From Candidatus Gastranaerophilales bacterium (GTDB lineage: Bacteria > Cyanobacteriota > Vampirovibrionia > Gastranaerophilales > Gastranaerophilaceae), in the NCBI GenBank assembly GCA_944325575.1, contig CALVAR010000006.1, positions 1 through 64,000 on the forward strand: a stretch of 64,000 nt of DNA. The letters are read 5' to 3'. This document shows positions 21,346-41,365 of this stretch, in pieces. The stretch's first letter is position 1, and the number at the start of each line of letters is the position of its first letter. The translations under genes were made by a program, and so were the position numbers. The notes beneath the pieces are model-generated. The model saw nothing but the letters and a program-made list of their open reading frames with translations, searched no databases and was not told the origin of the DNA.

Positions 21346-21524
21346 ATGTCTGAGGCGGCCTCGCTTGTAGAAGTGGTACACGGAGTGCGAGTGACGCAAA
21401 GTCTAGCATTTTGCGGAAGTGACCCCATGTACTTGTTGCCTGTGCTGGACTTGTTGAGAAAAATGGACTTGTTTATTGCACAGGTTCAACGGGTAATCGG
21501 AGTCAGTTGACAATATGAAATTAT
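21346..21524 (+). ncRNA. Dispersed structured RNA element, copy 1 (179 nt)
   Basis: First of three copies. Likely stems: GAGGC/GCCTC near the 5' end, CTCGC/GCGAG, CGCAAA/TTTGCG and CCTGTGC/GCACAGG. ACTTGTT occurs three times in the 3' half. It begins ATGTCTGAGG and ends TTGACAATATGAAATTAT. It has no long reading frame. It sits 19 bases after the PBP1A stop, and bioD converges on it from the other strand. GC content is clearly above its surroundings. Strand is assigned by analogy with copy 2, which points into a + strand gene. Not matched to a known family from memory. Confidence 0.7.
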
Positions 21525-23040: not shown

Positions 23041-23149
23041 AATTTTAACGATTTTCTTACTGCAATCATGAATAAAAATCAGCAAAATTGCAAGCTGATT
23101 GCATACATTTTCGACACTTGATAAAATAAATTTTATGGAATTGCTAAAA

Positions 23150-23417
23150 ATGTCTGAGGCGGCCTCGCTTGTACTCAAGAGCATCCTGAGATGTATGGCT
23201 CGTAAACTCGCCTACATCTCAAGCTAGAAGTGGTACACGGAGTGCGAGTGACGCAAAGTCTAGCATTTTGCGACTCTGCCGAAGAAACAATTAAGTATTG
23301 TTTCTGAGAGGTAGACCCCATGTACTTGTTGCCTGTGCTGGACTTGTTGAGAAAAATGGACTTGTTTATTGCACAGGTTCAACGGGTAATCGGAGTCAGT
23401 TGACAATATGAAATTAT
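23150..23417 (+). ncRNA. Dispersed structured RNA element, copy 2 with two hairpin insertions (268 nt)
   Basis: Outside two insertions this copy is identical to copy 1. A 53-base insertion after CTCGCTTGTA contains the stem TGAGATGTA/TACATCTCA. A second replaces the pentamer GAAGT with 41 bases containing GAAACAAT/ATTGTTTC. Both enlarge loops with self-complementary arms, which is strong evidence for conserved RNA folding. The last ten bases, ATGAAATTAT, are also the first codons of the gene at 23408, and GGAG in the element (about 23392) is its only ribosome-binding-site candidate. Confidence 0.75.
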
Positions 23418-25108
23418 TCAAAAGAGAATATAAAAATTTACTGATTATTTTTGTTATTTTTTTGATAAATGTATTTTTGTTCAAATACAAAATGTACAAT
23501 CTCAATACGGATTTTGGAAGAGAAGCTTATTTCCCTGCAATAATGGCGGACGGAGCAGTTCTGTACAAAGATATTTTTAATACATTTATATGTCCGTTTT
23601 CTTATCTTTTTAATGCAATTTTGATAAAATTATTCGGACATAGTTTAAATGTTTTGTTTATTGCCGGTGCAGCAAATGCATTTGCGATTACGGGGGGAAT
23701 TTATCTGCTTTCACGTGAATTTCTAAACAAAACAATATCTATGGCAATTGCATTATTTATTATCTTCTATTCCTGCTTTTATACGGGTCTTATGAATTAT
23801 ATTACTCCGTATTCCTATGCGGTTGTTTACGGATTGTGTGCGGTAGTTTTTTCTCTGTTTTTTTATACCTTATATTTAAAACATACAAATACATCATTTT
23901 TGTACATAGCTTTTATGTTCTCAGGCATAGCAGCTTCCTGCAAATATGAATTTATTCTGTATTCTTTTATATTGTTTCTTATATTTTTTCTTTCAAAACC
24001 GGAGCTGAAAAAAACAGTATTAAGTATTCTGTTTTTCCTTGTTGTTCCTTTTGTTTGTGTTTTAACATTGTATTTACAGGGGTTAAGACTGACGGATTTG
24101 CAAAACTATTTTGAAATTTTAAAAAGATTTGTTCATCATCCTTATCTTCAAAAAGTATATGCAACATCGTTTTTCTTTGATATTCGATCTTTTATTACAT
24201 CTTTAAAAAATTTTATTACAATTACTGCTGTGGCAGGAATTGTATTTTTTCTGTATAAAAAATCTGATGAAACAAAAAATAAAATATATCCTGTGTTACT
24301 CACCGTGTTATCTGTATTTTTATTGATACTTTGCCTATGCTGTGTAAAATTTCTTGAGTTTTGCGTTTATGATGCTGTTTCATATCTGCCGGTGTTTGTT
24401 TTTATACTGGCTGCCGTAAAAATTAAAGAGATAGTAAAAGACAGGGCTGTTTTGCTGATTACTATGGCTTCACTGGCTGTGTCCGCTAAATGTTTCTGGT
24501 ATTTTGCCAATAATTTTTACGGAAGATACTTTTTGCCTCTTTTAATTATTGCTTTGTTTATAATAATTTTCAGATTTTTTTGTAAACCTGAATATCAAAA
24601 ATATCTGCAAAAATCTTTGATTTTTATAATGGCAGTTCTTGCTTTGTCTTCGTTCCGGCTCAATCTTGTCGGACTTGTGCTGAAAAATACCGTAATCAAA
24701 ACACAAGCAGGTAAAATATGCGCCCGGAAGACAGATGCACAGATTTATAATAATATTCTGCATTTTGTGAATGAACGGACAAAGCATGATGAAACAATTG
24801 CAGTACTTGGCGCGGCTCCTTTAATCAACTTTTTAACGAGAAGAAATTCCGTTAACTTTTATAACCATTTTGATGAGGCAATAGCAGGCGCATATGGAGA
24901 AAGCAAAATTATTGAAGCTTATTCAAAAAATATGCCCGATTACTTTATAATCTTTTGTAATACGGATAAGAATTATGACTTTTGCCATACGTACGGGCAA
25001 AATATATGCAAGTTTATAAAAAGCGGCTATATAGAAGAATTATCCGTAAAAACTAAAGGTACAAACGATTATGCTTTGATTTATAAAAATAAGCGGGTGG
25101 ATAAGTAA
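23408..25108 (+). CDS. Membrane glycosyltransferase-like protein (PMT_2/GT-C type), paralogue 1
   Basis: A 566-residue polytopic membrane protein with about a dozen hydrophobic segments and a soluble C-terminal domain of about 120 residues. The N-terminal DFGREAYFPAIM...LYKDIFNTF segment matches the first periplasmic loop of lipid-carrier-dependent glycosyltransferases such as ArnT/PMT_2 proteins. Acceptor unknown. The start MKLFKREYKN aligns with MEFIKKEYKT of the next gene, supporting ATG 23408, which lies inside RNA element copy 2. The stop overlaps the next ATG by one base (TAATG). Confidence 0.75.
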   Translation: MKLFKREYKNLLIIFVIFLINVFLFKYKMYNLNTDFGREAYFPAIMADGAVLYKDIFNTFICPFSYLFNAILIKLFGHSLNVLFIAGAANAFAITGGIYLLSREFLNKTISMAIALFIIFYSCFYTGLMNYITPYSYAVVYGLCAVVFSLFFYTLYLKHTNTSFLYIAFMFSGIAASCKYEFILYSFILFLIFFLSKPELKKTVLSILFFLVVPFVCVLTLYLQGLRLTDLQNYFEILKRFVHHPYLQKVYATSFFFDIRSFITSLKNFITITAVAGIVFFLYKKSDETKNKIYPVLLTVLSVFLLILCLCCVKFLEFCVYDAVSYLPVFVFILAAVKIKEIVKDRAVLLITMASLAVSAKCFWYFANNFYGRYFLPLLIIALFIIIFRFFCKPEYQKYLQKSLIFIMAVLALSSFRLNLVGLVLKNTVIKTQAGKICARKTDAQIYNNILHFVNERTKHDETIAVLGAAPLINFLTRRNSVNFYNHFDEAIAGAYGESKIIEAYSKNMPDYFIIFCNTDKNYDFCHTYGQNICKFIKSGYIEELSVKTKGTNDYALIYKNKRVDK

Positions 25109-26775
25109 TGGAGTTTATCAAAAAAGAATATAAAACGATATTATTAATGTCGCTTTTGTTTTTTGTGTCAGCGTTTTTATTCAAATACAAAATGACGGAT
25201 TTATACATTGATTTTGGACGAGAAACAATTATTCCCCTTTCAATACTTGAGGGTAAAGTATTATATCGGGATATATTTTCTATTTACTTTCCTTTTTCAT
25301 ATCTTTTAAATGCAGTATTTTTAAAACTATTAGGTGTAAATCTCAAAACCTTTAATATAATAGGATTTCTAAATACATATGTGATTTTTATCAGTTTTTA
25401 TTTTATTGCAAGAAATTTTTTAGACAGGGTCTATTCTGTATTGTTGTGCTTTTTTATGCTTTTTGTCTGTGCAATTGTGCCTGCCGTAACAAATTATATA
25501 ACACCGTACTCTTATGCTGCCGTATATGGTATAAGTTCTGTCTGTTTATGTATATTATGTTCGCTTTCTTACTTTAAAACCTGCAGAACAATATTTTTAT
25601 ATATCGCCTTTTTATCAGCAGGAATAGCTCTTGCAAATAAGTTTGATTATGTTTTTTGTATAATACCTTTAATTTGGGCTGTTTTATACAAAAAAACAAC
25701 AATAAAAACAAAAGCCAAAACAATTTGTATATGCTGTGCATTGTATTTTATGCCTATTGCTGTTTCATTTGCTATACTTGCATATCAGGGTTTAACAATA
25801 TATGACCTTAACAATTATTTTCAAATCATAAACAGGTATATTCATTCTCCTCTTTTATATGAATTTTACAGAGGGACTATGACTTTTTCTCTGAAAGAAT
25901 TTATCGGCGAAATTATACTGATGTTTATTAGTGCGGGTATTTTTGTGTCGGTATTTAATATCTTAAAATTTTTTGCAAATAAAAATATAAAAAACACGGA
26001 ATTACCGATATTTACTGCATTATTTTTTATGTTTTATAAATTGGAAATTTTTTCAACGACTCTATTTTTTCACTATTTCCCTCTGCTTTTATTTCTTCTT
26101 TTCATTTTTAAAATAAAAGAAATTAAAAATAATCCGCAATTATTGTTTTTGATACTCATGACGTTTTCGTTTGGCATAAAGTCGCTTTTTTTATTAAATA
26201 CATCCCAATACGGAAGGTATTTTCTGTCGTTTTATATGATATGTATTGTGATAGTACTCGTGCAGTATTATTTTTTAAAGGATAGCGATATCAATAAAAG
26301 TGCTGTTGTGCTGGTGCTGTGTGCACTTATAACTGCCAATTTGTGCATAAACATAGAGACATTTAAATATTATTCCAACAAAATCCAAACACCTCGCGGC
26401 ACTGTATGCGCAACGGAAAAGGATAAAAAAATCTTTGATTACATTATTAATTACGTAACACAGAATACCGATAAAAACGACAAAATAGTTGTTCTTAGAG
26501 AAAGTTCAATAATAAATTTTTTAACGGACAGAAAAACAGATGATTTTTACAATCATTTTGAAAATATATCCTTTTATGCATTTGGTGAGGATAACATAAT
26601 CAGCCACTACAATAAAAACAAGCCTGATTATTTCATAATTTTTACTTCACAAACCGATAACAATGCATTTTGTAACGGATATGGTGCTAACACCTGCCGC
26701 TGGATAGAAAAAAATTATAATTTAAAACAAATAATAAAATCCGAGCCGTTAATTTTAATATTTGAAAAAATATGA
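25108..26775 (+). CDS. Membrane glycosyltransferase-like protein (PMT_2/GT-C type), paralogue 2
   Basis: A 555-residue paralogue of the preceding gene along its whole length: same N-terminal loop (DFGRETIIPLSIL...LYRDIF), same NYITPYSYAAVYG segment, same C-terminal soluble domain with a NHFENISFYAFGE counterpart to NHFDEAIAGAYGE. A recent-enough tandem duplication, translationally coupled. Both probably transfer sugars from a lipid carrier on the outer face of the membrane; donor and acceptor unknown. Confidence 0.75.
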   Translation: MEFIKKEYKTILLMSLLFFVSAFLFKYKMTDLYIDFGRETIIPLSILEGKVLYRDIFSIYFPFSYLLNAVFLKLLGVNLKTFNIIGFLNTYVIFISFYFIARNFLDRVYSVLLCFFMLFVCAIVPAVTNYITPYSYAAVYGISSVCLCILCSLSYFKTCRTIFLYIAFLSAGIALANKFDYVFCIIPLIWAVLYKKTTIKTKAKTICICCALYFMPIAVSFAILAYQGLTIYDLNNYFQIINRYIHSPLLYEFYRGTMTFSLKEFIGEIILMFISAGIFVSVFNILKFFANKNIKNTELPIFTALFFMFYKLEIFSTTLFFHYFPLLLFLLFIFKIKEIKNNPQLLFLILMTFSFGIKSLFLLNTSQYGRYFLSFYMICIVIVLVQYYFLKDSDINKSAVVLVLCALITANLCINIETFKYYSNKIQTPRGTVCATEKDKKIFDYIINYVTQNTDKNDKIVVLRESSIINFLTDRKTDDFYNHFENISFYAFGEDNIISHYNKNKPDYFIIFTSQTDNNAFCNGYGANTCRWIEKNYNLKQIIKSEPLILIFEKI

Positions 26776-41186: not shown

Positions 41187-41365
41187 ATGTCTGAGGCGGC
41201 CTCGCTTGTAGAAGTGGTCCACGGAGTGCGAGTGACGCCAAGTCTAGCATTTTGCGGAAGTGACCCCATGCACTTGTTGCCTGTGCCGGACTTGTTTTTA
41301 AAAACTGACTTGTTTATTGCACAGGTTCATCAAGTAGTCGGAGTCAGTTGACAATATGAAATTAT
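41187..41365 (+). ncRNA. Dispersed structured RNA element, copy 3 (179 nt)
   Basis: Same length as copy 1 with, by hand count, 13 substitutions and no insertion or deletion. The terminal blocks ATGTCTGAGG and GGAGTCAGTTGACAATATGAAATTAT-type end are unchanged, as are CTCGC/GCGAG and CCTGTGC/GCACAGG. Substitutions cluster between the second and third ACTTGTT and near GGTTCA. It lies alone in the 422-base gap between the SIS gene and the dehydrogenase, 150 bases before the latter. Otherwise that gap holds only AT-rich sequence and the GGGAGG ribosome site of the next gene. Confidence 0.7.

Follow-up and report, generated by a model that had tools for sequence, protein, structure and literature searches.

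A modular mobile repeat of Candidatus Gastranaerophilales and its 3′ end as the probable start codon of a glycosyltransferase gene

Introduction

When a mobile repeat ends exactly on the start codon of a gene, did it land before that codon or did it bring the codon along? The question is raised by a 64,000-nt stretch of DNA from a Candidatus Gastranaerophilales bacterium (hereafter, the window), which is part of contig 6 of the host genome (2.02 Mb, 99.4% complete). In the window, the last nucleotides of a repeat copy open the reading frame of a 566-aa membrane glycosyltransferase (PMT_2). The initial annotation of this locus left two possibilities: ATGA sites are the precise insertion points of the element, or the first codons came with it. 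Our preferred reading, to which we assign a probability of about 85%, is that a mobile repeat carrying ATGAAAT as its own end cut off the original start of the gene and supplied its own; taken as a whole, this best explains the comparisons with element-free relatives described below.

Results

The repeat, its ends, and its spread

The 10-mer ATGAAATTAT was found at positions 21515, 23408, and 41356 of the window, always on the plus strand and always where a repeat copy has its 3′ end. Taken by itself, this 10-mer says little (three matches versus 0.9 expected, with seven of 100 shuffles reaching three); in combination with a repeat of ~175 nt, it is not a chance occurrence. Copies 1 (21347–21521) and 3 (41188–41362) have the 175-nt core form and are located between a penicillin-binding protein gene and bioD, and between two open reading frames (ORFs), respectively. 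Copy 2 (23151–23414), also on the plus strand, is 264 nt long and reads TGTCTGAGG...GACAATATGAAAT. As initially annotated, translation from the ATG of copies 1 and 3 yields three codons before a stop (MKL in both cases), and that of copy 2 opens the 566-aa ORF (23408–25108, plus strand); the start is matched by that of the adjoining tandem paralogue (25108–26775, plus strand), which begins MEFIKKEYK.

The repeat was detected at ~45 places in the host genome, including at least 36 complete copies; these were gathered from search matches. The exact end ATGAAAT was present in 34 of the 36 complete copies, the other two ending in ATAAAAT and ATGAAAA. The base that follows varied (T in 19 copies, A in 16, and C in one), and as the sequence past ATGAAAT is variable, the TAT common to the three window copies is a coincidence. 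The claim that every copy ends in the same 10-mer thus describes the window copies correctly, but the conserved part is ATGAAAT only. The aligned copies and the empty sites described below show the element to extend from TGTCTGAGG through ATGAAAT with fixed ends. Terminal inverted repeats were not found: the TGTCTGAGG and ATGAAAT ends show no inverted repetition except for a 4-nt UGUC/GACA pairing.

The relatives whose records contained the repeat were mostly Candidatus Gastranaerophilales. When 146 genomes of the order were searched with a model of the repeat, nearly all matches fell within one genus, and a single convincing copy was detected outside it, in another genus (G160) of the same family; a match in G111 proved to be coding sequence and was discarded. 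The copy in the second genus (L255) contains a hairpin module, CTCTGCCGAAGAAACAATTAAGTATTGTTTCTGAGAGGTAGA, identical to window positions 23274–23315. No match to the repeat was found in the viral contigs, phages, and plasmids searched, and a search for literature on repeats in Gastranaerophilales returned nothing. One congener (G022) carries a decayed copy (L253, 1501–1674) in the same penicillin-binding protein/bioD intergenic region as window copy 1, and the two may represent either a shared old insertion or a hot spot.

Empty sites and the origin of ATGAAAT

The flanks of insertions were joined and searched against 23 genomes of the genus, and the element-free orthologous loci were inspected for an intact target-like ATGAAAT near the junction. 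At seven occupied sites, in none of the 50 element-free orthologues did ATGAAAT occur 20 nt or less from the junction. Since ATGAAAT is missing from the empty sites, it belongs to the element as its 3′ end and is not its target, which disposes of the suggestion of precise insertion in front of ATGA. A particularly exact example came from a membrane-protein gene (L055, G015), whose joined flanks aligned without gaps over 500 nt, at 96% identity, to an empty site in G005 that also lacked ATGAAAT.

A target choice of the HEARO type would have the element inserting exactly before an existing ATGA(AAT), so that the start codon was the gene's own. HEARO elements reportedly sit before ATGA, and the regularity of ATGAAAT at this place in 34 of 36 copies would fit such a choice. 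We nevertheless give it almost no credence, given the 50 orthologues and the ungapped empty site, and given that the HEARO model RF02033 had no match in the genome at E-values up to 10. HEARO/IscB omega-RNAs share with the repeat the nature of a mobile structured RNA, the many orphan copies, and an ATGA at the right end; they differ in that here ATGAAAT belongs to the element rather than to the target, in the missing covariance-model match, and in that no IscB was found (the RRXRR control was silent as well). Having failed both the covariance model and the test for a pre-existing ATGA/GTGA at empty sites, an identity with HEARO was rejected.

The empty-site comparisons revealed no target-site duplication upon insertion. 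The left flank was biased: A was present at position −4 in 86 of 103 copies (83%) and at −3 in 68 of 103 (66%), followed by A or T at −1, and insertion is shown by this alignment of flanks to follow a weak A-A-N-W motif. A gene for an SMR transporter illustrates the precision of the event. Its empty site in congeners reads ATATATG/CT.TGG (the slash marking the point of insertion), and the occupied site reads ATATATG, followed by TGTCTGAGG...ATGAAAT, followed by CTATTTGG. Taking out TGTCTGAGG...ATGAAAT, here a core copy (L036; G000 contig 4, 60301–60475), restores an ORF of 108 codons.

The start of the glycosyltransferase gene

Glycosyltransferase orthologues without the element in G010, G006, and G014 start with ATGAATTTGTTAAAA, and the matching ATGGAATTGCTAAAA precedes the element in the window. 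In these three genomes the gene begins with ATGAATTTGTTAAAACAGGAATACAAG or a close variant of it, preceded by CTTGATAAAATAAAGTTT or CTTGTTAAAATAAAGTTT. The window shares this context: CTTGATAAAATAAATTTT stands before ATGGAATTGCTAAAAA, which abuts the element on its 5′ side. Based on alignment with the element-free orthologues and on translation, ATGGAATTGCTAAAAA (23135–23150, plus strand) is the native start of the gene. It is severed after codon 5, and reading on from it gives MELLKMSEAASLVLKSILRCMARKLAYISS and then a stop inside the element. The ATGAAAT of the element (23408–23414, plus strand) is in frame with what is left of the gene, giving MKLFKREYK. Copy 2 is thus shown by alignment to sit after codon 5, with its in-frame tail, ATG AAA T, as the predicted new start replacing the severed native one. 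The second initial proposal, donation of the first codons, agrees with these comparisons: the orthologues keep a different native start, and the window has the corresponding start upstream of the element.

The joined flanks of copy 2 read MELLKIFKREYKNLL. MELLKIFKREYK, the N-terminus predicted for the ancestral protein, exceeds those in G010, G006, and G014 by three codons, and the junction is accordingly not as exact as those at the other loci. As N-terminal length varies among relatives, the three additional codons do not upset the start-donation reading. The orthologous glycosyltransferase region of G006 harbors a distinct, oppositely oriented copy of the element (L083, 1274–1450), so insertions into this region have occurred at least twice in the genus.

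Modular architecture and predicted RNA fold

Alignment of 36 copies revealed that internal hairpin modules have been gained and lost, resulting in many length classes. Two such modules, each present or absent depending on the copy, are found on the plus strand of copy 2: a 53-nt hairpin (23172–23224) and the hairpin CTCTGCCGAAGAAACAATTAAGTATTGTTTCTGAGAGGTAGA (23274–23315). Loci L201, L234, L235, L220, and L198 are long mosaics of several exchangeable hairpin modules, some of which are tandemly repeated. The best explanation of the family is a non-autonomous, non-coding mobile element consisting of a 175-nt core and interchangeable hairpin modules, found in one genus of Candidatus Gastranaerophilales.

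The predicted folds of the three window copies were more stable on the plus strand (−61, −94, and −56 kcal/mol) than on the minus strand (−39, −80, and −49 kcal/mol), and copy 2 with three flanking bases had a fold z-score of −4.85. Across 32 core copies from the genus, 44 pairs held in 99.1% of cells, compared with only 34–41% pairing in a control in which the partners were slid. Two-sided changes in predicted pairs occurred in 17 cells versus 4.1 in shuffles. Nearly all one-sided changes were exchanges between Watson–Crick and G-U pairs, which fits an RNA read from the plus strand. In the predicted fold, the 5′ UGUC is matched by a GACA close to the 3′ end, beyond which AATATGAAAT protrudes as a tail. 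The covariation shows the plus strand to have a conserved, covarying predicted fold.

The conserved structure, together with the restoration of MELLKIFKREYK and of the SMR frame upon removal of the element, would also be compatible with a self-splicing intron that is excised from the mRNA. Any insertion without target duplication, however, restores a frame exactly on removal; Rfam yielded no group I or group II match at either gathering or relaxed thresholds; and just five of the 36 copies interrupt an ATG-started ORF of at least 90 codons. Splicing of this kind is therefore highly improbable, and we return to an insertion that supplied the start codon.

Under start donation, transcription from the native upstream region would run through the element, yielding an mRNA with the element as its leader, and ribosomes would start the glycosyltransferase at the element's ATG. 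The sole Shine–Dalgarno (SD)-like motif before the new ATG is GGAG (23392–23395, plus strand; 12-nt spacing). It forms part of helix 6 in the predicted fold, where it is base-paired. For the initial proposals that the element supplies the ribosome site and that translation would depend on the folded RNA, this distant and paired motif is the one candidate, and folding of the element may possibly control translation in this way.

Candidate mobilization systems

We searched for an enzyme that might move the repeat. Y1 transposases were detected in eight of the 23 congeners and were absent from the copy-rich G006, G010, G014, and G021, a negative weakened by the incompleteness of the MAGs. The host genome has three Y1 genes, none of them flanked by the element's ends. 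Mobilization in trans by resident Y1 transposases was therefore considered unsupported, with neither element ends at Y1 genes nor such genes in the copy-rich congeners. L078, L079, and L080 (G000) are orphan Y1 transposase genes of RAYT-like type; one of the three is partial, and none has element ends nearby. The reverse transcriptase domain RVT_1 was detected in three of the 23 congeners and not in the host genome (incomplete assemblies weaken this negative), leaving spread driven by reverse transcription unsupported as well. Among the loci collected there was no autonomous, ORF-bearing version of the element, a negative that is likewise weakened by incomplete assemblies. Tandem or circular end junctions were not found either: of two candidates, one (L217) was a left flank with the usual AAAT and the other (L241) an unrelated piece of coding sequence.

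Could the repeat be the guide-RNA (OMEGA) scaffold of an IscB or TnpB transposon, i.e., a MITE whose RNA takes its guide from the flank? The lack of target duplication, the structured RNA-like body beside a variable flank, and the high copy number would suit such a scaffold. We consider it very unlikely because RF02033 had no match, no TnpB domain was found in the host genome (PF07282; the control search was positive in six genomes, and incomplete assemblies weaken the negative), and an ORF-bearing version is missing from the collected loci. RRXRR had no match in 40 relatives, although its control search gave none either.

The joined ends of the element (AAAT/TGTC) resemble the occupied target (AANW/TGTC), from which we infer that its movement may involve a single-stranded DNA form or, alternatively, a recombinase supplied in trans. 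Mimicry of an occupied target by joined ends is the logic of single-strand IS200/IS605 transposition. Non-autonomous IS200/IS605 elements (MITEs of Y1 HUH transposases) share further features with the repeat: there is no target duplication, the short target motif is one-sided, and the end (AAAT) echoes that motif. The repeat differs from them in its degenerate AANW preference, in the copy-rich congeners devoid of Y1, and in the local Y1 genes devoid of element ends. REP/REPIN sequences with RAYT transposases are likewise high-copy, palindromic, non-coding, and possibly mobilized in trans; the repeat is much larger and multi-branched, and RAYT-like genes are absent from its copy-rich relatives. 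The family is thus of interest as a modular repeat whose mobilizing enzyme is not among the usual suspects.

A more far-reaching proposal is that an RNA-form element (strand-specific, covarying, and modular) reaches at least 40 copies per genome without target duplication, and in many hosts without TnpA, TnpB, IscB, or reverse transcriptase, by an undescribed transposition route, its 3′ tail repeatedly becoming a host start codon behind a structured leader that controls translation. We regard this proposal as speculative and rather improbable.

Start-codon capture at other loci

Start captures were shown in three cases among ~150 copies. In addition to the glycosyltransferase, these are the membrane-protein gene L055, the start of which changed from MRFLKECFKK to MKLFKDCFKK, and a gene for endonuclease III, identified by the domains PF00730, HHH, and EndIII_4Fe-2S. 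The native-start ATG of endonuclease III was present in all 14 relatives compared. In the host genome, the element lies just before this position, the native ATG is now ATT, and the element-derived ATG AAA TTT ATT AAT GAG is in frame (L007, 1652–2314; G000 contig 8). A 95%-identical congener reads TTATGAATGAG, compared with the element followed by TTATTAATGAG in the host genome. As the native ATG of this repair gene decayed after capture, host genes seem to have come to require what was a parasitic repeat. These are orthologue-checked cases of a mobile repeat replacing a gene's own start codon, one of them in a DNA-repair gene with a decayed native ATG.

Of 149 copies with enough downstream sequence, 10 had an open frame of at least 60 codons from the element's ATG and 14 had one in the other usable frame. 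Without an in-frame excess, chance exaptation suffices and there is no sign of selection for starting genes. Start capture is thus most likely chance exaptation rather than a function of the element, which is best read as a parasite whose tail happens to hold a start codon.

The missing in-frame excess also suits a less favorable view of the window gene, namely that the element broke it, that the in-frame ATG is coincidental and unused, and that the remainder is a young pseudogene. Other copies do interrupt genes, as in the SMR case, and the paired state of GGAG at a distance of 12 nt points the same way. On the other hand, no stop interrupts the 566-codon frame, and endonuclease III, a conserved repair gene, lost its native ATG yet stays open from that of the element. 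We therefore take inactivation to be unlikely, albeit a serious alternative, and keep the reading in which the element's ATG starts the glycosyltransferase.

We place the family as non-autonomous modular repeats whose end is exapted as a start codon. Closest to them in form are the BOX elements of Streptococcus pneumoniae, in which boxC can give a start codon to an ORF leaving the element (Croucher et al. 2011, PMC3049150). Like the repeat, BOX elements are short, non-coding, high-copy, modular, and gene-disrupting, with RNA-like folds and variable internal modules. Unlike the repeat, which has neither and is unrelated in sequence, they possess terminal inverted repeats and target-site duplications (PMC3049150). 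A further distinction is that, for the captures reported here, orthologues that lack the element and retain a native start served as the reference.

At one further locus (L005, G000 contig 21), the element precedes a ferritin-like gene and creates a six-codon mini-ORF, MKYRRE followed by a stop, which overlaps the likely ribosome site AAGGGAG.
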